From Physcia stellaris (lineage: Eukaryota > Ascomycota > Lecanoromycetes > Caliciales > Physciaceae), in NCBI GenBank assembly GCA_018902385.1, contig JABSSW010000025.1, positions 538,948-602,947 of the forward strand: a DNA stretch of 64,000 nt. Direction: 5' to 3'. Of the stretch, positions 48,878-64,000 are shown piece after piece. The notes under the pieces were generated by a model. The model searched no databases and had not been told where the DNA came from. It saw only the letters and a program-made list of their open reading frames with translations. The translations under genes were made by a program, and so were the position numbers. Numbering within the stretch: the first letter of the stretch is position 1; each line of letters starts with the position of its first letter.

Positions 48878-50291
48878 ATGTTATCCATTTTCTTATTTGC
48901 TTCGCTTGCGGCCTCAGCTATAAATAACTACGGTACCTCAGCTAGCACCGTTGTACTTGACCTTCAACAGAACGATGCGTCGACCACTCAAGACGATCAA
49001 TTACTGACTAACATTCGGGGCTCTCTTGGACAACTATCATCAAGATATGGGGGAGCTGCCCGGGCTCTAGCGTTCAACGCAGATGGATCTTCCAATGGAA
49101 AGAGCATCTTGCCTCTTGCCGGACAACAACTCCCAGCTGGTGGGTATGGAGTCTATTACGGGAATATCACGATAGGCACCTCTTCCCCGCAGAATTTCAA
49201 AGTCGTCTTCGACACTGGTAAGTCGCAATTTTCGTCATGAGCTGCAATAGCAAGACTGATTATCTAGGTTCCTCTGACTTGGTCGTCCCTGACTCCGACT
49301 GTTCGCTATCAAGAGGATGTCCAGCTTCAACAAAGTATAACGACAAAGGCATTCCTCAGAAGAACTCCACAACCATTATTTATGGAAGTGCAAACGCAAA
49401 TGGTGAGCGATCCGTAACAGGCAGCTCTCCCACGCCTCGAGGTCATGCTAATTCCACAATCTCTAAGGTACCAACTATGTGGATAGTATATCCATCGCCG
49501 GATTAGAAAGCTCCAACCAGGGACTTGTAGCCATCCATGATAGTGATGGTGTTCAGGATGCTCTCTTAGGTCTGGCTTTTGCGAATCGCTCCCTGAGTGG
49601 AATGACGCCTGTGTTTGATAATCTAAGAGCGGCCAATGCAAGACTTTACCCACAATTCTCTTTCTACTTCGGCCGCAACGGAAGTGGCAGCCAACTCACT
49701 TTAGGTGGAAACGATACCTCAATGTACCAAAGCCCAAACACTGTTTTGGTGACAAAGGAATCATACTGGCAAATCGCAGTTGACGGGATGACTGCCAACG
49801 GCAACTCAGTCGGTAGTATAGCAGAAGGCCAAGCGGCTGTTGATACCGGCACGATTTTGACATTCATTCCTACCGAAGCTGCAACAGCTGTTTTTAAGGC
49901 GATTCCCAACAGTATCCCATATAATAATTCAGAGCAGCCCGGCACTACATTCTACGCTTACCCCTGCGACACGGATGAATCCTACATGCCCACATTCATT
50001 CTCAATGGGCGCCCCATGCCAATCAACGTTACTGACTTCAACGCTGGAGCTCTCAATCAAAGATCCGCCGTAGACGTTGGTGGCGCGGCATTTGCAAACC
50101 AGATTGCTGCTATCCAAGAACGACAGAACATAGAATTTTGCGGTGCCGCCATAGTAGGAGCTTTCAAGAGCAATAGTGGTATGGACCTGAATTACGTGCT
50201 TGGGTCGACTTTCTTACGAAGTTACTACACGATCTTCACTCATGCGCATAACGGACATGGTTCAAGTGTTACTTTCGGGGAGCTCAAGTAG
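48878..50291 (+). CDS. Secreted pepsin-like aspartic protease (family A1)
   Basis: Exons 48878-49217, 49268-49402 and 49468-50291 join in phase to 432 aa. The signal peptide is at the N-terminus (MLSIFLFASLAASA), followed by a propeptide-like region up to about residue 85. The first catalytic triad is FDTGSSDLVVP (Asp about 112), split by intron 1. The second is AAVDTGTILTF (Asp about 284). Other family marks are YYGNITIGTSSPQNFKVVF, LLGLAF and YVLGSTFLRSYYTIF. Many NxS/T sites are present. There is no obvious GPI signal at the C-terminus, so it is probably released. It is the last recognisable gene before the AT-rich block. Confidence 0.92.
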
Positions 50292-51719
50292 ATCAAGCGG
50301 CCAAACTTGTGGTAGCATGTAGCAGATCTTGAATTGGTTATCTTCACTCGCCAGTTCGCAACTTCCCGCAGTGGTTCCGAGAAGCTGAACCTAAGCCATA
50401 TACGTTCTTGGTGAAGCTAGAGAGGCTTTCAGAATTAGTCAAGTGAGGAAATTTGGTATCTTTCCAAGACCCGCAATGTTTCGCGGTCCTACATACCTTG
50501 ATAGAACCAAGCAATAGCTTTACAGACTTCCCTGCCGGTTCTGGAGACCGGGATGTAATGACAGCACTGCAAGCAAGCCTTCCCGTACACAACGGAAGGC
50601 TTATAGTCCGCTGACTCTTCTGAAGTTTAGCTCTGAATAGCATTGGTACCATAGAAAGCTTCGACTGTTGACCAAGAGCTCGTGAGGGTTTTCATGGCAA
50701 AAATAAGGTCCTTCCATTGCACCGCCTCGATGCGCTATATACCTATCTGCATCCCAAGTCGACCCGAAGGATCTTCAATCCTACGGCGAGTGAAGGATAG
50801 GCCTGGCGTTGAGTTGCAGACTTCTCGACGTGCATGGCGAGGACATCATAGTGAACACCTACTGCACATCAAGGATCCACAGATATGATAACTCCGGCTG
50901 ACAAGCATGCGAGGTGAATCCACTTGAAAATACAGACATTGAACAGCCCATAGCTGTGGTGTGATCCTGAGGAGACCTCTTCAGTAAATTTCCTATATCT
51001 CCTGTACTGCGCGCACCCTCGATAAGCTTCGTGATCAAATCAACTTCCGTCTTCAAACGCTTTTCTTCCTCCAAAACGCAGTCCGTTCATGGCTCACTCA
51101 TTCCCTACTTCGCCATTCGATGATGCTGATGACAAATAGAGAAGTACGTCAACATCCGCGCCGGGTGCATCGTTATTGAGTCATCACTGTGAACTTTCGA
51201 CAGCTATCGTTTCATCAGAAGATGTTTGCTCCATCATCAGCCTTCATTCCGCGAGCAGTAAATTATGACGTCGCAGAGAGATTCGTCCTTGCGACAGCAA
51301 TCGATTGAGGTTGGTTTTGAGACAGTCTTTCCCCCATTCTGTTTATCTACTTCCGATCTAAGATCTATTTTAGTATGTCGCGTACAGTGCCAAGTTTCTG
51401 ATGGGTTTAGAGGTCCTGTTTTATTCTGCGAATGCCCCGGCTGACCTCATTGGCGCGCAAATCCGGAATTGAGCCCACATGACCAGACACGTGTACATCA
51501 TTCACGTTTCTTCTGAGCCGTCAATGTATCAGAACTGATGTGTCTTCCCCTTGTCTGAAATGTTTCCGGTGATCAGCAGTGCAGATCGAGCCAATCCAGA
51601 TAGGTAAGTCGTGAGCGGGACGAGATTTCAAGTGAGAGCATAGTCAGTCGAGTAAGTTTTTTGTGACTTGTTCGGGTAGGTCTAGTTATTCTGAATCTTG
51701 ACAGACAAAAGAAGTATAG
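50292..51719. other. Intergenic, edge of the AT-rich block
   Basis: Normal-composition DNA with no supportable gene. One short minus-strand frame around 50859-51074 reads protein-like (EEEKRLKTEVDLITKLIEGA) but has no family or exon chain. Composition changes abruptly near 51720. Confidence 0.35.
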
Positions 51720-51837
51720 CTTAAATTACTAGTAGCAAAGATATTTTGAAAATATTACAAACGATTGAAAAAAAGAACTCGACGAATCAAAAGAAATTTG
51801 TTGTTTAATATTAATTATATTTCATGATTTTGTTCAT

Positions 51838-52300
51838 CAAAATGAATTACAAAAAAGCGAAAAAAACTTTTCGCGAACATACGTTTATTTTTTATTTTCG
51901 TTTGAAATTTGCTTCAAATTCTGCGTCAGAATTCATCAATGAAAAATCGATGAAATTGAATTTATTTCATCGTTTTGTTCAAATTTTGCGTCAAATTCTA
52001 TCGATGAAAAATCGATGAAATCGATTATATTTCATCGTTTTGCTCATCAAAGTGAATTACAAAAAACGAAAAAAACTTTTCGCGAAAATACGTTTATTTT
52101 TTATTTTCGTTTAGAATTTGCGACAGATTTTGCGTCAAAATTCATCAATGAAAAATCGATGAAATTGAATATATCTCGACGTTCTGTCTAGAATTTGTGT
52201 CAAAATCTATTGATGAAAATTCGATAAAAAATCGATGAAATTTTCGATATTTCAACGTTTTGTTCAGAATTTGCGTCAGATTTTGATTCAAAATTGATCA
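51838..52300 (+). repeat. Two tandem copies of a about 210-base unit
   Basis: Units starting near 51838 and 52050 share a segment reading AATGAATTACAAAAAA-type sequence followed by CTTTTCGCGAA and then a 12-base-word array. The same unit recurs near 54465, 55460, 56380, 57518 and 58048, and inverted near 59565, 59935 and 60295. Confidence 0.7.
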
Positions 52301-53159
52301 TTTGACAATCGATGATCAATCGTTAATATTTGTTCATTACAACAATGATTGATTTGAACAAATTTACAATAATATTTTGTATAAACAAAAAACGCATGAT
52401 CAATCACGACGTGTTTGTATTTTCGTTTTCGAATCGATTTAACGAATTTTCATTAAATAACGTGCAAAGTTGAATCAAATTCGACGTTTGTTTATATAAA
52501 TTTTCTATTTGATGATTTTGTCACAATCGATTTTTTGATCACATGAATAATTGTTGACGAATCGTAAAAAACAATCTATCAAATCATAATAACAATGACT
52601 ATGTTGTTTCGACGATTAAAACTGTAAAACGTTATCAAAAATATTGAATTTCATGTTTTCATTTTGAAATTTCGAGATTTAATATCGATTGTTTCAATTT
52701 GATGTATGACGACAAACGTTGTTTTTAAAAATTATCAAATTCGCGAATACAACAATGCGATCGAAAAAATCGAATTTCGAATTGATAACACGTCGTTAAT
52801 CAATTGAGTCGTATTTTACAAAATTCATTTCTCGTTTTCAATTTTTTTTTTGATTTCATTTTCAAATTGTTTGAACATCAATCATTTCGACTCGACAAAA
52901 TATTGATAATTCAAAATTTGTAAATTTTTATTTCAAATAAATCAATTTTCGACAAATATTTTGAGTTTTCTTTTGTCAATCATTTTGTCATTATTTTTAA
53001 CAATTTTCGTGACAGAAAATCTTTACGAAAATTATCGCTCATTTCGATTATAATTCATTTCAAAAAACACGTTTACATCAAGATTATCAATTCACGTACA
53101 ATTTATTTCAAATCATCAAAATGTTTGACAATAAATGCATGATTTGAAATGATAAATCA

Positions 53160-53760
53160 AAATATTATCAATCATATCGTAAATGTCGTTGACTCGACAT
53201 CACAATCAATGTCAACGAGCAATTTTTTTTCATCATTTTTGCAACGCATGACATCAAAATCGATTTTTTCGTTGTAATTGTCATTTTTGAATTTCATTGC
53301 ATTTTTAAAATCGTGCAAAAACAAATCAAAAAACTCAAATTCAAAATCAAAATCGATGATGATTTCGTTTTTGATACGAAAATTGATGAATTCGATTTCG
53401 AAATCAAAAAAATCGCGAAAATCAAAACAATTGATGAAATTTTCAAAAACGTTAAACAAATTTCAAAAAAACGTAAAATCAACGAAAATGACGTAAATTT
53501 TCTAAATTTCGCATTCGAAAAAAAACAAAAATCAAACGAAAACGTTGTCAATGATCAAAAATTAAATGTTGTTGTTGATATCGACGACAATGAATTTGCG
53601 AAACGTATTTTAATTGTCAAGCGAAAAACGAAAAAAATGTTTGAAATTGAAAAAAACGATGACGATCGTGTTGTAATGAAAACGAAAAAAATGTTTGAAA
53701 TTGAAAAAAACATTGAATATTTCGATTAAAATATTTGATCATTAAATTTCGATCAAAACA
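53160..53760. other. Non-repetitive island with Lys/Asp/Asn-rich frames
   Basis: This segment lacks the common repeat words and holds overlapping frames (53313-53729 plus, 138 codons; 53172-53459 minus). The translations are almost only K, D, N, E, I, F and V, as expected when CpY loss removes most Pro, Gly and Leu-CTN codons. It may be a heavily mutated former gene or transposon part. No domain can be recognised. Confidence 0.3.
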
Positions 53761-54789
53761 ATTTCAATCAATTTTTTGCACGTGTGAACAACGATTTGCA
53801 ACGAATAAAATTGTAAATGAATAATTTCGTTCACAAAATCGTGATCGTGATTGTCATTTTTTTAAAATTTGCATTCGAACAATTTGTTTCATTTGTTTTC
53901 ATTTGAACAATAACATATTTTTAAATCATTTTTTTATTTTTATTTTTGTTACATATTTTTTTTTTGTCATTGAATTCGCAATTATTGAATTTTTCTACTT
54001 TTGCGCAATTCGTTAATTTTTGATTTTTCGAATTATTAACATTTGACGTTTTTTGTTTTGATGATTTTTTTTTTGAACGATGTATCGAACTAAATGAAAA
54101 AAAATCGATTTTTTTGAAAAAATGTTGACGTTTCGAATTAAAAAATTTTTGAAAATAATGATGATTGATATTGATTTAATTCAAATTTGATTCAAATTCA
54201 ATCATTTCACAATCGATAACTCATTGACACGTATTCAGATTCTCGTTCAAAATTTCAATTTATTTTCATCATTATTCGTTTTCAATTTCAGAATTTCGTC
54301 GATGATACAATGAACTTCACGTTGATATTCTGATAAATTGATTGTGTATTCGTCGATGAAAACGTTTGAATCGTTGTAATTTTTTCGTGATGTTTCTGTA
54401 CATATCACGTTGATCAAAATCATCAATTTTTCGAAACGAATTTCAAAATTCATGACATCAAAATGAATTACGAGAAAGTCGAGAAAAATTTCGACGAAAA
54501 TACGTTTATTTTCGATTTTCGTTTAAAATTTGCGTCAAATTTTGCGTCAGAATAAATCAATGAAAAATCGATGAAATTGATTGTATTTCATCGTTTTGTT
54601 CAGATTTTGCGTCAAATTTGCGTCAAATTACATCAATGAAAAATTGATGAAATTGATTGTATTTCATCGTTTTGTTCAAACTTTGCGTCAAATTCTGCGC
54701 CAAATCACATCAATGAAAAATCGATGAAATTGATATTATTTTATTTTTTTGTCAAGAATTTGCGTCAAATTTTGTTTCAAATTTTGCAA

Positions 54790-55140
54790 TGCGAAATCGA
54801 TCGTCAATCGATGATCAATCGTTGTTAACACAAAATTGATTGATTTGAACAAATTTATAACAATAATTTGTATAAACAAAATGCGTATAATTATCATTGA
54901 CGTGTTCGCATTTTCGTTTTCGAATCGATTTAACGAATTTTCATTGAATAACGTGCAACGTTAAATCAAATTTGACGTTTGTTTATATAAATTGTTTATT
55001 TGATGATTTTTTTTTTTTTTTTTTTTTTACACGTCAACGAGATCGACGAGTTTTTGCTGACGAAATCGAAATTGAAAATGATTCGAAAATTTTTAATTCG
55101 TTAAAATTTGATTCAAAATTGAATCAAATTCAATTTTTTC
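54790..55140 (+). repeat. Module B/D, forward copy 1
   Basis: Contains a segment near ATTTGAACAAATTTATAACA, then TTCGCATTTTCGTTTTCGAA, then AATAACGTGCAACGTTAAAT, a poly-T run at about 55007-55028, and a part with CGACGAGTTTTTGCTGACGA. It recurs at 55640-55990 about 850 bases on. Confidence 0.7.
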
Positions 55141-55639
55141 ACAATGAATAATTCATTGACACGTATTCAAATTTTGCGTCAAAATTTTTTAATGAAAAAT
55201 CAATGAAATTGATTTTATTTCATTTTTTTATTTAAAATTTGCGTCAGATTTTGCGTCAGATTTTTACAATTTGAAATCGATGAAATTGATTTTATTTTAT
55301 TTTTTTGTCAAAAATTTGCGTCAGATTTTGCGTTAGATTTCGTCAATGAAAAATCGATAAAATTGATTGTATTTTGTTTTTTCGTTCAAAATTTGAATCA
55401 AATTTTGCGTCAAATTACATCAATGAAAAATTGATTGTATTTCACAATTTTGACAATCAAAATGAATTACAAAAAAGCGAAAAAAACTTTTCGCGAAAAA
55501 AAATTTATTTTTTATTTTCGTTCAAAATTTGAATCAAATTTTGCGTCATGTTTCGTCAATGAAAAATCGATGAAATTGATTATGTTTCATTTTTTCATTC
55601 AGAATTTGCGTCAGAATTTGCGTCAGAATTTTACAATGC

Positions 55640-55990
55640 GAAATCGATGATTAATCGCTAATTCAAATTCATCACAACAATGATGAATTTGAACAAATTT
55701 AACAATAATTTGTATGAACAGAATGCGCATAAATTGATTATTATCATTTTATTGTGACGTGTTCGCATTTTCGTTTTCGAATCGATTTAACGAATTTTCA
55801 TTAAATAACGTGCAACGTTAAATCAAATTTGACGTTTGTTTATATAAATCGTTTATTTGATAATTTTTTTTTTTTTTTTTTTACACGTCAACGAAATCGA
55901 CGAGTTTTTGTTGACGAAATCGAAATTGAAAACGATTCGAAAATTTTTAATTCGTTAAAATTTGATTCAAATTTGAATCAAATTTAATTT
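55640..55990 (+). repeat. Module B/D, forward copy 2
   Basis: Direct repeat of 54790-55140 with the same order of words, including AATAACGTGCAACGTTAAAT, a poly-T run at about 55865-55882 and CGACGAGTTTTTGTTGACGA. Confidence 0.7.
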
Positions 55991-56564
55991 TTTCACAATA
56001 AATAATTCATTGACACGTGTTCAAATTTTGCGTCAGATTTTCACAATGCGAAGTCGATAAATCGATTGTATGTCATTTTTTCATTCAAAATTTGCGTCAA
56101 AATTCGTCATTGAAAAATCAATAAAATTGAATATATTTTATTTTTTCGTTCAAAGTTTGCGTCATTTTCTGCGTCAGATTTTCACAATGCGAAATCAATG
56201 AAATTGATTTTATTTTATTTTTTTGTCAAGAATTTGCGTCAAATTTTGCGTCAAATTTCGTCAATGCGAAATCGATAAAATTGATTGTATTTTGTTTTTT
56301 CGCTCAAAATTTGAATCAAATTTTGCGTCAAATTACATCAATGAAAAATTGATTGTATTTCACAACTTTGACAATCAAAATGAATTACAAAAAAACGAAA
56401 AAAACTCTTCGCGAAAAAAAATCTATTTTCTATTTTCGTTCAAAATTTGAATCAGATTTTGCGTCAAATTTCGTCAATGAAAAATCGATGAAATTGATTA
56501 TGTTTTATTTTTTCATTCAAAATTTGCGTCAGATTTTGCGTCAAATTTTACAATTCGAAATCGA

Positions 56565-56970
56565 TGATTAATCGTTGATTCAAATTCATCACAACAATGA
56601 TGAATTTGAACAAATTTACAACAATAATTTGTATAAACAAAATGCGTATGATCATCATTGACGTAAATTCGCATTCTCGTTTTCGAATCGATTGAAAAAA
56701 TCAAAAATCGTTTATTCAAAACAGAAATCGATAAACGCGATTAATGACAAATGAAATTTTAAAAAGTTTTTTTTTTCAACAAACACGTGATATTTTCAAT
56801 TGATCGTTTTCGTTGAAAACGTTTTTAAACAATTTATCATCGCAATTGTCGATAAAATCAAAAACAATCGCAAAATTTCGAAAAATCATAAACATTCATG
56901 ATTTCAAAATTGTCGATTACACGAGATCAGAATCTATCGATAAATCATCGATGAAAAATCGATGAAATTG
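56565..56970 (+). repeat. Module B/C, forward copy
   Basis: Starts with the module B words (ATTTGAACAAATTTACAACA, TTCTCGTTTTCGAATCG) and runs into a segment with CACGTGATATTTTCAATTGA and then TTCATGATTTCAAAATTGTC. The reverse-complement copies are at 60775-61205 and 63400-63812. Confidence 0.75.
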
Positions 56971-58099
56971 ATTTTATTTCATTTTTTCGTTCAAAATTTG
57001 CGTCAAAATTTGAATCAAATTACATCAATAAAAAATCGATGAAATTAATTGTATTTTATCGTTTTGAATTTGCGTCAAAATTTGAATCAAATTACATCAA
57101 TGAAAAATCGATGAAATTGATTGTATTTTATCGTTTTGTTCAAATTTTGCGTCAAATTTTGCGTCAAATTACATCAATGAAAAATCGATGAAATTGATTG
57201 TATTTCATCGTTTTGAATTTGCGTCAAAATCTGTGTCAAATTACATCAATGAAAAATCAATGAAATTGATTGTATGTCATTTTTTCGTTCGAAATTTGCG
57301 TCAAATTTTGCGTCAAATTTCGTTTTTGAAAAATCAATGAAATTGATTTTATTTTTTTTTTGTCAAGAATTTGCGTCAAATTTTGCGTCAAATTTTCACA
57401 ATGCGAAATCGATGAAATTGATTGTATTTCGTTTTTTCGTTCAAAATTTGCGTCAAATTTTGCGTCAAATTATATCAGTGAAAAATTGATGTGTATTTCA
57501 CAATTTTAACATTCAAAATGAATTACAAAAAGCGAAAAAATCTTTTCGCGAAAGAAAATTTATTTTTTATTTTCGTTCAAAATTTGAATCAAACTTTGCG
57601 TCAGATTTTCACAATTCGAAATCGATGAAATTGATTTTATTTTATTTTTTTGTCAAAAATTTGCGTCAGACTTTGCGTCAAATTTCGTCAATGAGAAATC
57701 GATGAAATTGATTGTATTTTATTTTTTTGTCAAAAATCTGCGTCAAAGTTTGCGTCAGATTTCGTCAATGAAAAATCGATGAAACTGATTGTATTTCATT
57801 TTTTTTTGTCAAGAATTTGAATCAAAGTTTGTGTCAAATTTCGTCAATGAAAAATCGATGAAATTGATTGTAATTCATTTTTTCGTTCAAAATTTGTTTT
57901 AGAATTCGTGTCAGAATTCGTCAATGAGAAATCAATGAAACTGAATATATTTCATTTTTCGTTCAAAATTTGCGTCAAATTTTGCGTCAAAATACATTAA
58001 TGAAAAATCGATGAAATCAGTTTTATTCGATCGCTTTGCTCATCAAAATCGATTACAAAAAAACGAAAAAACTTTTCGCGAATTTGAAAATTAAAAAAA

Positions 58100-59255
58100 A
58101 AACGATATCGTTTTTGTTTTGACAAACGTTCATCGCGTTTCATCAATTCATTCAAATATTTGATTTTGTTTACATATCAATTTTTAACTCGACAACAAAA
58201 CATATTTTTTCATTTATTGTCGTCACAAAGTAGAAATTCTCTTTTCGTTCAACGTTTTGTTCAATATTGATTAATTAATTCATATTTATCTATTTTCAAA
58301 CATACATAAATAGAAATTTGATTATTCAATTTTGTTCAATATTTTCGCACGATCACAATCAAATTTGAAAAAATGAATTTTTTTCATTCACATCAATTTT
58401 TTTCAAAACACGATTTTGAAATTTTTATCGATATTTGACGATTTTCGACAATTTTTTTTGTTCATTAAAAACAATCGTTATTATTTTTGTTTGTTATCAA
58501 ATTTCATTAATCGCAAACAATAATTTGATAATTTTTTTATAATTTTTGTATCGCGCAATATAACAATTATCAAAATGTCACGTTAAATTATCGAACAAAA
58601 TCGTCATTTTTTTTCATTATCATTCGTCAAAACATTTTAAAAAAAAAAAATGAATCATCATTTTCGAAAAATTCGAATATGAAAAGAACGATGAAATTTG
58701 TCGATTGATTTTCATTTTTTCGTTTTGTCATTATTCATGTTTTTTTCGTCACATTTTTTCACATTTTTTTATTTCTTTTCGTTTTTTTTTGTTTCATTTT
58801 ATTCATTTCATCATTTTTGTTTGCGTTGAACGATTTTCAATTAACACAATCACGCGTTCAAAATCAACATTTTTTTAAATTGATCAAAAACATTTCAAAC
58901 AAAATTTTTTTCATCGTTGTCGTTCGCGACACGAAACGTAAAATCGACGAAATTTTTTCGTGCAACGACAACGACGTTTTTTTCGACGACAACGAAAACG
59001 CAATCGACGAAAATGTTGACGCAAAAAAAAAAAATGAAAATCGCGATCAATAACAAAATCAAATTCAAAACAAATGTTAAAATTTAATTCAAAATCAAAA
59101 TTGATAATATTGAAAACGAAAATAAAAACGAAAAAAACAAAATTAAATTTAAAATTGAGCGCGAAAAAAAAAATTGTTGATGCGAAACGCGATAAACGTG
59201 ATGAAAAAAAAACGAAAATTGAAATTTGTTTAATTGCACGTTATCGATTGAAAAT
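58100..59255. repeat. Core between opposite-facing repeat halves
   Basis: Lacks the TTTGCGTCAAAT words. It is T-rich on the plus strand up to about 58800, then holds Lys/Asp-rich frames (58817-59053 and 59074-59262, plus strand). It separates the forward-facing left half from the inverted right half. No gene can be supported. Confidence 0.5.
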
Positions 59256-60774
59256 TCGTTAAATCGATTCGAAAACGAAAATGCGAATACGTCAATGATA
59301 ATCATACGCATTTTGTTCATACAAATTATTATTAAAAATTTGTTCAAATTTATCATTGTTGTAATAAATTTGAATCAACGATTAATTATCGATTTCGCAT
59401 TGTAAAATTTTGACGCAAAATTTGACGCAAATTTTGAACAAAAAAATAAAATACAATCAATTTCATCGATTTCGAATTGTCGAAATTTGACGCAAAATCT
59501 GATTCAAATTCTGAACGAAAATAAAAAATAAATTTTTTTCGCAAAGAATTTTTTCGATTTTTTGTAATTCATTTTGATTGTCAAAGCTGTAAAATACAAT
59601 CAATTTTTCATTGATGTAATTTGACGCAGAATTTGATTCAAATTTTGAGCGAAAAAACAAAATACAATCAATTTTATCGATTTCTCATTGACGAAATCTG
59701 ACGCAAAATCTGACGCAAATTTTTAACAAAAAAATAGAATAAAATCAATTTTATCGATTTCGCATTGACGAAATTTGACGCAGATTTTGACGCAAATTTT
59801 TGACAAAAAAATAAAATAAAATCAATTTCATCGATTTTTCGTATTGTGAAAATTTGACGCAAAATTTGATTCAAATTTTTAACGAAAATAAAAAATAATT
59901 TTTTTTTCGCGAAAAGTTTTTTTTATTTTTTTGTAATTCATTTTGAATGTCAAAATTGTGAATATAAAATACAATCAATTTTTTATTAATATAATTTGAC
60001 GCAAAATTTGACGCAAATTTTGAATGAAAAAATATCGATTTTTCATTGACGAAATTTGACGCAAATTTTGACGCAAATTTTTGACAAAAAAATAAAATAC
60101 AATCAATTTTATCGATTTTTCATTGACGAAATTTGACGCAAATTTTGACGCAAATTTTTGACAAAAAAATAAAATAAAATCAATTTTATCGATTTCGAAT
60201 TGTGAAAATTTGACGCAAAATTTGATTCAAATTTTGAACGAAAATAAAAAATAAATTTTTTTCGCGAAAATATTTTTTCGTTTTTTTGTAATTTATTTTG
60301 AATGTTAAAATTGTGAAATACAATCAATTTTTCATTGATGTAATTTGACGCAAAATTTGACGCAAATTTTGAACGAAAAAACGAAATACAATCAATTTTA
60401 TCGATTTCGCATTGTGAAAATTTGACGCAAAATTTGACGCAAATTTTTGACAAAAAAATAAAATAAAATCAATTTTCATTGATTTTTAAAAAAAACGAAA
60501 TTTGACGCAGAATTTGACGCAAATTTCAAAAACAAAAAAAATGACATACAATCAATTTCATTGATTTTTCATTGATGTAATTTGATTCAAATTTTGACGC
60601 AAACTCAAAACGATGAAATACAATCAATTTCATTGATTTTTCATTGATGTAATTTGACACAGATTTTGACGCAAACTCAGAACGATGAAATACAATCAAT
60701 TTTATCGATTTTTCATTGATGTAATTTGACGCAAAATCTGACGCAAATTCTGAGCGAAAATTCGTGATAAAATC

Positions 60775-61205
60775 AATTTCATCGATTTTTCATCGATGAT
60801 TTATCGATAAATTTTGATTTCGTGTAATCGACAATTTTGAAATTATGAATGTTCATAATTTTTCGAAATTTTGCGATTGTTTCTGATTTTATCGACAATT
60901 GCGATGATGAGTTGTTTAAAAACGTTTTCACGACGAGAAACGATCAATTGAAAATATCACGTGTCTGTTGAAAAAAAAATTTTCTAAAATTTCATTTGTC
61001 ATTAATCGCGTTCATCGATTTCTGTTTTAAGTAAACGATTTCTGATTTTTTCAATCGATTCGAAAACGAAAATGCGAACACGTCAATGATGATTTTATGC
61101 GCATTCTGTTCATACAAAGTATTATTAAAAATTTGTCGAAATCAAACATTGTTGTGATGAATTTGATTCAACGATTGATCAATCGATTTCGCATCGTGAA
61201 AATTT
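60775..61205 (-). repeat. Module C/B, inverted copy 1
   Basis: Reverse complement of 56565-56970: it carries TTTTGATTTCGTGTAATCGA, AATATCACGTGTCTGTTGAA and CGATTCGAAAACGAAAATGC in mirrored order. Confidence 0.75.
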
Positions 61206-63400
61206 GACGCAAAATTTGACGCAAATTCAAAAAAGCGATAAAATACAATCAATTTCATCGATTTTTCATTGATGTAATTTGATTCAAATTCTGACGCAGA
61301 ATTTGAACAAAGCGATGAAATACAATTAATTTCATTGATTTCGCACTGATGTAATTTGATTCAGATTCTGACGCAAATTCTGAGCGAAAAAAATGAAATA
61401 GAATCAATTTCATCGATTTTTCATCGATGATCAATCGTTAAATTCTGACGCAAAATTTGAACAAAACGATGAAATACAATCAATTTCATCGATTTCTCAT
61501 TGATGTGATTTGATTCAAATTTTGACGCAAAATTTGAACAAAACGATGAAATAAATTACAATCAATTTCATCGATTTCTCATTGATGTAATCTGACGCAA
61601 AATTTGACGCAAAATTTGAACAAAACGATGAAATACAACTAGTTTCATTGATTTCGCATTGATGTAATCTGATTCAAATTTTGACGCAAATTCTGAACGA
61701 AAAAATGAAATAAAATCAATTTCATCGATTTTTCATCGATGATTTATCGTTAAATTCTGACGCAAATTTTGAGCAAAACATCGAAATACATTTAATTTCA
61801 TCGATTTTTCATTGATGTGATTTGACGCAAAATTTGACGCAAAATTTGAACAAAACGATGAAATACAATCAATTTCATCGATTTTTCATTGATGTAATTT
61901 GATTCAAATTTTGACGCAAATTCAAAACGATGAAATACAATCAATTTCATTGATTTTTCATTGATGTGATTTGACGCAGAATCTGACGCAAAATTTGAAC
62001 AAAACGATGAAATACAATCAATTTCATCGATTTTTCATTGATGTAATCTGACGCAAATTTGACGCAAAGTCTGAAGCAAAACGATGAAATACAATCAATT
62101 TCATCGATTTTTCATTGATGTAATTTGACGCAAAATCTGACGCAAACTCAAAACGATGAAATACAATCAATTTCATTGATTTTTCATTGATGTGATTTGA
62201 CGCAAAATCTGACGCAAAATTTGAAAAAAACGATGAAATACAACGAATGTCATCGATTTCTCATTGATGTAATTTGATTCAAATTTTGACGCAAACTCAA
62301 AACGATGAAATACAATCAATTTCATTGATTTTTCATTGATGTGATTTGACGCAAATTTGACGCAAAATTTGAACAAAACGATGAAATACAATCAATTTCA
62401 TCGATTTTTCATTGATGTAATTTGACACAAATTTTGACGCAAATTCAAAACGATGAAATACAATCAATTTCATCGATTTTTCATTGATGTAATCTGACGC
62501 AAATTCTGACGCAAAATTTGAACAAAACGATGAAATACAATCAATTTCATCGATTTTTCATTGATGTAATCTGACGCAAAATTTGACGCAAAATTTAAAC
62601 AAAACGATGAAATACAATCAATTTCATCGATTTTTCATTGATGTAATCTGATTCAAATTCTGACGCAAAATTTGAACAAAACGATGAAATGAATTACAAT
62701 CAATTTCATCGATTTTTCATTGATGTAATTTGACGCAAAATCTGACGCAAAATTTGAACAAAACGATGAAATACAATTAATTTCATCGATTTTTCATTGA
62801 TGTGATTTGATTCAAATTTTGACGCAAAATTTGAACAAAACGATGAAATACAATCAATTTCATCGATTTTTCATTGATGTAATCTGACGCAAATTCTGAC
62901 GCAAAATTTGAACAAAACGATAAAATACAACGAATGTCATCGATTTTTCACTGATGTAATTTGATTCAAATCATGACGCAAATTCAAAACGATGAAATAC
63001 AATCAGTTTCATCGATTTTTCACTGATGTAATCTGATTCAGATTCTAACGCAAACTCAAAACGATAAAATACAATCAATTTCATTGATTTTTCATTGATG
63101 TGATTTGACGCAAAATTTGACGCAACGTCTGAACGAAACGACGACGAAATACAATCAATTTCATCGATTTTTCATTGATGTAATCTGACGCAAAATCTGA
63201 CGCAAAATCTGAACAAAACGATGAAATACAATCAATCTTATCGATTTTTCATTGATGTAATCTGACTCAGATTCTGACGCAAAATTTGAGCAAAACGATA
63301 AAATGAATTATAATCAATTTCATCGATTTTCGCTGATGTAATCTGATTCAAATTTTGACGCAAATTTGAACGAAAAAAATGAAATAAAATCAATTTCATC
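61206..63400 (-). repeat. About 77-base satellite array with 11-12-base sub-repeat
   Basis: About 25-30 head-to-tail monomers. A clear example runs from about 62461 and repeats 77 bases later: CAATCAATTTCATCGATTTT, then TCATTGATGTAATCTGACGC, then two or three copies of a word like AATTTGACGCAA, ending in GAACAAAACGATGAAATA. Shorter monomers of about 65 bases lack one of the internal words. Most variable positions are TCTG/TTTG, CTCATTG/TTCATTG or GAGC/GAAC, that is CpT/TpT on one strand or the other. No spacers of constant length separate unique sequences, so it is not CRISPR-like. Confidence 0.8.
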
Positions 63401-63812
63401 GATTTTTCATCGATGATTTATCGATAAATTTTGATTTCGTGTAATCGAGAATTTTGAAATCATGAATGCTCATGATTTTTCGAAATTTTGCGATTGTTTC
63501 TGATTTTATCGACAATTGCGATGATAAATTGTTTAAAACGTTTTAACGACGAAAACGATCAATTGAAAATATCACGTGTCTGTTAAAAAGAAAACTTTTT
63601 AAAATTTCATTTGTCATTAGTCGCGTTCATCGATTTCTGTTTTGAATAAACGATTTTTGATTTTTTCAGTCGATTCGAAAACGAAAATGCGAACACGTCA
63701 ATGATTAATCATGCGTATTTTTCATACAAATTATTGTTATAAATTTGTTCAGATTCATCATTGCTGTGACAAAAGTTTAAATCAACGATTAGTCATCGAT
63801 TTCGCATTGTAA
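63400..63812 (-). repeat. Module C/B, inverted copy 2
   Basis: Second inverted copy of the module at 56565-56970, about 2.63 kb after inverted copy 1, with the 77-base array between them. This implies a higher-order repeat of about 2.6 kb. The final bases of the window match the reverse complement of the CGACGAGTTT segment of module D, so the pattern continues past 64000. Confidence 0.75.
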
Positions 63813-64000
63813 AATTTTGACAAAATTTTGACGCAAATTTGAATGAAAAAAAAATATAATCAATTTCATCGATTTCGCACTGACGAAATCTGACGCAAAA
63901 TCTGAACACGTGTCAATGAATTTTTCATTGTGAAAATCAATTTGATTCAGCTCTGAATCAAATTTTAACAATCTCGATTTCGTCAACAGAAACTCGTCGA

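Follow-up and report, generated by a model that had tools for sequence, protein, structure and literature searches.

The 64,000 nucleotides analysed here (hereafter, the window) come from Physcia stellaris (Ascomycota, Lecanoromycetes; assembly GCA_018902385.1) and correspond to positions 538,948 to 602,947 of contig JABSSW010000025.1, called C25, whose 602,947 bases end in an AT-rich block where C is almost never followed by C and rarely by T. Comparisons of transposon copies and of a decayed ribosomal DNA (rDNA) copy from the same genome revealed C-to-T changes on both strands, mainly at CpC and then at CpT, with CpA and CpG largely spared. We consider it probable, from these sequence comparisons, that the block was made by a repeat mutator similar to that of repeat-induced point mutation (RIP), which would read a pyrimidine 3' of its target and prefer CpC over CpT, and both far over CpA and CpG.

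Composition of the block

The window shows a sharp edge near position 51700, and its main parts are the following:

1 to 51699, no strand: ordinary gene-bearing sequence, the unaffected control (eIF4E, GDA1/CD39, aspartyl protease, IF-2B and other domains; from composition and domain matches)
51700 to 51760, no strand: edge of the block, where CC/GG drops to zero, the level in 50000-51699 being 4-15 per 100 bases (from CC/GG counts)
51700 to 64000, no strand: CpC- and CpT-depleted AT-rich block, reaching the end of contig C25 (from composition)
54700 to 54701, + strand: the sole CC/GG dinucleotide of 51720-64000 (from dinucleotide count)

From 51720 to 64000 the GC content is 0.260, versus 0.490 in positions 1-51719, and the dinucleotide odds are 0.00 for CpC, 0.21 for CpT, 1.40 for CpA, 3.11 for CpG and 0.31 for TpA, versus 0.95, 1.06, 1.08, 0.89 and 0.73, respectively, in the control. 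When 200 mononucleotide shuffles were used to obtain expected counts, CC+GG was observed once instead of 414.9 times (standard deviation 18.9) and CT+AG 245 times instead of 1178.2 (standard deviation 27.4); CpA and CpG are over-represented and TpA is low. The near absence of CpC and CpT, the abundance of CpA and the lack of TpA inflation had been reported in a preliminary description of this DNA, together with a count on three lines of sequence (53401, 57121 and 58441), and all of this agrees with our recount: on the three lines, each of the 22 C precedes a purine, and a purine precedes none of the 18 G.

The 5' base matters little for CpC, C being retained at one of the 1,794 N[C/T]C sites of the block, both strands considered. 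A mutator guided by the 3' neighbour of its target, changing C before a pyrimidine on both strands of repeat DNA and leaving C before a purine nearly untouched, would lead at saturation to a sequence in which every C precedes a purine and every G follows a pyrimidine, a state close to that of the block. This rule alone would be sufficient, because a CpY site (Y, pyrimidine) remains CpY when the neighbouring C becomes T.

Direction of change in transposon and ribosomal DNA copies

Fourteen reverse-transcriptase pieces were compared, three with a GC content of 0.48-0.50 (L023-L025) and eleven AT-rich (0.24-0.36), with 0-20 CC+GG. One of the former, L023 (contig C52), has an open frame with no stop in the match and is 72-77% identical to four of the AT-rich copies, L028-L031; since only 7-15 differences in about 719 bases remain beside the C-to-T changes, L023 is close to their ancestor. 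Going from L023 to L028, L029, L030 and L031, copies whose histories may partly overlap and which are not independent samples, C-to-T changes account for 165/176, 169/180, 155/162 and 187/202 of all differences, respectively (93-96%). In the same order, the changed sites were 80/82, 79/80, 79/81 and 81/81 for CpC (98-100%), 77/88, 78/89, 70/89 and 84/89 for CpT (79-94%), 3/93, 7/92, 2/92 and 14/93 for CpA (2-15%), and 4/92, 4/91, 3/92 and 7/92 for CpG (3-8%).

The 5' base of CpC was nearly without effect in L030, where ACC, CCC, GCC and TCC had changed at 20/20, 9/11, 24/24 and 26/26 sites, respectively, and C was kept at TCA (23/25) and TCG (27/29). These counts argue against an AID/APOBEC-type DNA cytidine deaminase with single-stranded repeat DNA as substrate, as enzymes of this class read the 5' base; such an activity would account for C-to-T changes on both strands with few others, but it appears very unlikely to us, and a search of the genome for APOBEC_N, run without a positive control and with other deaminase families not searched, gave no match. 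The same counts exclude dipyrimidine damage of the ultraviolet type, to which we leave a negligible probability: CpC and CpT are indeed both dipyrimidines, but so is TpC, whose C survives at almost all the TCA and TCG sites.

Moreover, the few other differences found in the decayed copies, beside 155-187 C-to-T changes, indicate that the latter were fast relative to ordinary substitution. This speaks, as does the near saturation of CpC with CpA at 2-15%, against a slow decay without any RIP event, in which a DIM-2-type enzyme methylates CpC and CpT in heterochromatin and 5-methylcytosine undergoes ordinary deamination. We regard this decay as unlikely, even if a DIM-2-like gene is present in the genome (see below) and partly eroded copies, L026 and L027, exist; a review assigns DIM-2 a CpT preference, but also has it methylating all CpN (PMC13297926).

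The partly eroded L026 and L027, with CC+GG of 8 and 20 and CT+AG of 61 and 62, respectively, suggest that CpC is lost first. In L027 we also observed, at about 300-450 of an otherwise mutated piece, a 150-base unmutated island (GC 0.51, 7 CC and 10 GG), possibly a conversion tract.

A second line of evidence comes from rDNA. A 5.8S search of the assembly, with 39 scored of 2,644 candidates, gave one match at E 0.001, C41:45899-46052, which is surrounded by 28S, 5.8S and 18S segments with matches in Rfam (L037, C41 near 44.4-47.6 kb). This is a decayed copy, and the functional rDNA array is apparently unassembled. The direction of change is not in doubt here, because a reference external to the genome gives the ancestral state. 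With adjoining upper-case (conserved) letters of the Rfam consensus as reference, in thirteen blocks, which include poorly aligned parts of 18S, C was now T at 29/35 CpC (5 kept, 1 other), 20/39 CpT (17 kept, 2 other), 1/33 CpA (29 kept, 3 other) and 0/36 CpG, and in the eight well-aligned blocks at 24/26, 15/30, 0/23 and 0/28, respectively; CpT was only half changed in this copy. Other ascomycetes are also reported to have RIP-mutated rDNA copies, in which CpA is the main target (PMC5555474). The CpC survivors in L021, L022 and L037 are mostly CCG/CGG (15/24, versus about 20% of CpC in positions 1-51719 of the window), and the +2 base may be relevant to CpC survival.

On an estimate from the transposon and rDNA losses, CpC would change at about 2 to 4 times the rate of CpT and at least tens of times that of CpA. 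The process proposed in the preliminary description, i.e., a C-to-T change favouring C before a pyrimidine, stands in these polarised comparisons, which cover few repeat families, with the amendment that CpC is hit harder than CpT; CpA was looked for as the main mutated context and was not found as such.

The stop codons within transposon domains amounted to 695 TGA, 137 TAA and 6 TAG. They were distributed as 250 TGA, 33 TAA and 3 TAG in RVT_1 (150 scored matches of 527 candidates), 401, 101 and 3 in RVT_2 (137 matches), and 44, 3 and 0 in DDE_1 (10 matches), some rows being adjoining or overlapping parts of one element, so that part of the stops depend on one another. No stop was present in ten RVT_1, four RVT_2 and one DDE_1 matches. 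The excess of TGA is explained by the GpG-to-GpA change, which turns TGG into TGA, whereas mutation of CpA would give TAA and TAG from Gln codons. Through DDE_1 the pattern reaches DNA transposons, and the share of TAA suggests a second, slower loss of CpA.

Spread over the genome, satellite and candidate enzymes

The genome consists of 43.97 Mb in 147 contigs, with TTAGGG telomere repeats. Of 20 pieces of 1.5 kb sampled at random (40 planned, at positions drawn over contigs with interpolated lengths), five were affected (L038, L040, L042, L048 and L055), all with loss of CpC and CpT. Their GC content was 0.25-0.33 and their CC+GG 0-23, versus 146-226 CC+GG in the other 15 pieces. Since the averages of CpA+TpG (192 in the affected versus 209 in the spared pieces) and of CpG (87 versus 82) are alike in the two groups, CpC and CpT are the contexts lost. 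The affected share of the genome is perhaps about a quarter, with a wide margin at this sample size. In addition, the signature extends over the whole of the first 10 kb in C140 and C147, two small contigs. The sequences affected are transposon pieces, an rDNA copy and a satellite, and their kinds suggest that the process is repeat-directed.

The satellite lies within the block and has a 77-base monomer:

51814 to 52229, + strand: 209-base repeat in two copies, related to the 77-base satellite (from repeat comparison)
54507 to 58017, + strand: 77-base satellite arrays at 54507-54782, 55167-55435, 56085-56343 and 56946-58017 (from repeat comparison)
59388 to 63415, - strand: 77-base satellite in the opposite orientation at 59388-59530, 59599-59898, 60033-60793 and 61201-63415 (from repeat comparison)

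The two sets form long inverted arms, with a core between them at about 58.0-59.4 kb; this arrangement may be that of a centromere. With at least 71 matches in the assembly, a lower bound with 11 candidates scored, the satellite was seen among the latter only at the ends of C25 (window 51896-63905) and of C44 (C44:407877-417311, the contig being 417486 bases long), the two contigs possibly representing opposite sides of a single chromosome's satellite array. In 26 monomers from 61150-63500, counted on both strands and unpolarised, 31 columns vary between C and T, with T as 3' base in 14, G in 7, A in 7 and C in 3. Differences mainly of C to T before T had been claimed for this array; T is in fact the largest class, but the bias is weaker than claimed and, since the variable columns are mixed by 3' base, the satellite alone is no proof of a CpY preference.

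The finding of the satellite, among the candidates scored, only at two contig ends, and the fact that no GC-richer ancestor of it is known here, would also fit a composition that was always such, the satellite and the AT-rich blocks being foreign or selected sequence. We find this hardly credible, as the signature is derived both in the transposon copies, which have an open-frame relative, and in the rDNA copy, for which conserved rRNA letters give the ancestor; judging from these alignments, an ancestral composition is contradicted for the tested transposon and rDNA copies, and not for the satellite itself.

As for the enzymes, a search of the genome for DNA_methylase (PF00145) gave four matches in three genes, on C3, C5 and C6. 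The match at C3:340323-341498 belongs to a long open frame that corresponds to PDB chain 9bap over residues 220-905 (whole-protein E 2e-181) and also in a second, N-terminal stretch, as in a DNMT1-type protein with a long N-terminal part. The entry name of 9bap is only DNA (cytosine-5-)-methyltransferase; we take it to be DIM-2, and the C3 gene, hence, to be DIM-2-like. The C5 and C6 genes are 40% identical across 174 catalytic-domain residues and 34% identical across 149 residues of an upstream segment, and carry PPCQ, and EQT or EET in the usual place of ENV; from these motifs, we assume that they are RID/Masc1-like. Both seem intact, because the two TGA of the C6 match sit in intron-like stretches and the C5 match consists of two pieces without stops. 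Genes of the two types that the preliminary description had indicated as relevant are present, with two RID-like and one DIM-2-like copies. A Pre-SET protein on C37, presumably of DIM-5 type, and a match to the MAT alpha-box on C4 were also found. The alpha-box and the RID- and DIM-2-type genes, together with eIF4E, GDA1/CD39, aspartyl protease and other genes of the window, suggest a filamentous ascomycete.

In the mechanism that we propose, a mutator of the RID/Masc1 class, i.e., of cytosine-5 methyltransferase type, would recognise repeats, presumably before meiosis, and deaminate or methylate C at CpY, with the DIM-2-like enzyme in a helping or maintaining role; the changed specificity would most likely lie in one of the two RID-like genes, and a slower loss of CpA would be added in old copies. 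The presence of a second RID is not by itself enough to explain the changed context, since Anisogramma has two rid copies and one dim-2, and yet CpA and CpT are mutated (PMC10998396).

Several observations weigh against a RIP-like mutator of this kind. The reverse-transcriptase pieces L024 (C5) and L025 (C12) are unmutated in spite of 97.6% identity over 720 bases, with differences running in both directions, and thus not all repeats are being affected at present; the pair is a recent arrival or an escape. Among L028-L031, C/T differences occur at 29 CpT columns, but also at 24 CpA columns, which suggests, together with the 14/93 of L031, a second and slower CpA-to-TpA loss in saturated copies. 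Diverged pairs mostly keep the order of contexts, but more weakly, with changes at CpC, CpT, CpA and CpG of 12/20, 34/58, 16/61 and 18/84 from L027 to L035, 14/20, 35/62, 17/74 and 25/96 from L027 to L036, 5/8, 32/60, 27/101 and 31/86 from L026 to L030, and 5/8, 33/59, 29/101 and 31/86 from L026 to L029. The RVT_2 and DDE_1 pairs are too diverged to be polarised, and some are without CpC excess: the latter was seen only from L058 to L060 (69/110 versus 22/111 for CpA), and from L061 to L062 the counts were 17/46 for CpC, 31/68 for CpT, 29/71 for CpA and 23/61 for CpG. No intact piece of these two domains aligned well enough to a decayed one, and their composition alone was used. The satellite variation is mixed in context and gives mixed support, the names RID and DIM-2 were assigned by motif and not by phylogeny, and a search of the genome for the chromo-shadow (HP1) domain, run without a working positive control, gave no match.

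As a separate observation, the 17 internal differences between L024 and L025 all fall at the same codon phase, as if under selection at the protein level.

Relation to known systems and meaning

The process resembles RIP of Neurospora crassa and other Pezizomycotina in the C-to-T changes on both strands of transposons and rDNA copies, in the AT-rich blocks and in the presence of RID-like and DIM-2-like genes. The context, instead, is different, as N. crassa RIP follows the order CpA>CpT>CpG>CpC (PMC5496416), whereas here CpC comes first and CpT second, CpA and CpG are largely spared, and TpA is low rather than raised. The canonical CpA preference was not observed either in the transposon copies (CpA 2-15% versus CpC 98-100%) or in the rDNA (1/33 versus 29/35). 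In Trichoderma reesei RIP also proceeds by C-to-T with a changed context, which in crosses is CpA about equal to CpG, then CpT>CpC (PMC5496416), so that CpC is last there and first here.

For the CpT half of the pattern there are precedents. CpT is a main mutated context also in transposons of Magnaporthe, Botrytis, Sclerotinia and Colletotrichum and in Tad1 of Neurospora (PMC4352252, PMC6180176; RIPCAL on Tad1, PMC2621366), and CpT-to-TpT has been described as predominant in alignments from fungi capable of RIP (PMC7882544). Those ascomycetes use CpA too, with TpA/ApT of about 1.6 in the CpT-type families of Colletotrichum, and the signatures given for ten fungal genomes are CpA, CpT and CpG, with no CpC signature in what is available of that paper (PMC4352252). 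In basidiomycetes, Microbotryum and Rhizoctonia solani AG8 likewise show RIP-like C-to-T changes in a non-CpA context, CpG or TpCpG (PMC4352252, PMC4014442). In AG8, a table of single-nucleotide polymorphism (SNP) spacing has CpC with the shortest mean distance, 214 bases genome-wide and 301 in repeats; the authors, however, call the mutations CpG-biased, and SNPs are denser in genes than in repeats (PMC4014442), whereas CpG is kept here. CpC is also involved beside CpA in Stagonospora repeats, as a depletion from RIPCAL (PMC2621366), and in Monilinia, as CpC-to-TpT double changes (PMC8959702). In the openly licensed literature searched, as far as its available parts go, we found no ascomycete with CpC as main target, the AG8 table being the nearest case, and a process that hits CpC first and spares CpA and CpG appears to be without precedent there. 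The CPC of PMC5602860 denotes a strain and not the dinucleotide.

The standard RIP indices of the block are 0.31, 1.78 and -1.47, which by published thresholds (PMC7882544) score it as non-RIP. L021, L022, L037 and L028-L031 are RIP-negative as well, and all the composites are below those of unaffected sequence (-0.58 and -0.56). Indices of TpA/ApT and CpA/TpG, by which RIP is scored in Ascomycota, can thus be strongly negative for DNA that is heavily mutated and, for this reason, calls of RIP absence need a check of all four CpN contexts.

The near-complete reversal of the order, with candidates that can be counted, i.e., two RID-like and one DIM-2-like genes, makes the control of the target context of RIP directly testable. 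We give an even chance to a turned-round RIP, in which one RID-like enzyme acquired the reading of a 3' pyrimidine; it would kill Trp codons (TGG to TGA), spare CpA and CpG, hit perhaps a quarter of the genome and be missed by surveys based only on TpA and CpA, and other fungi called RIP-free may carry it.

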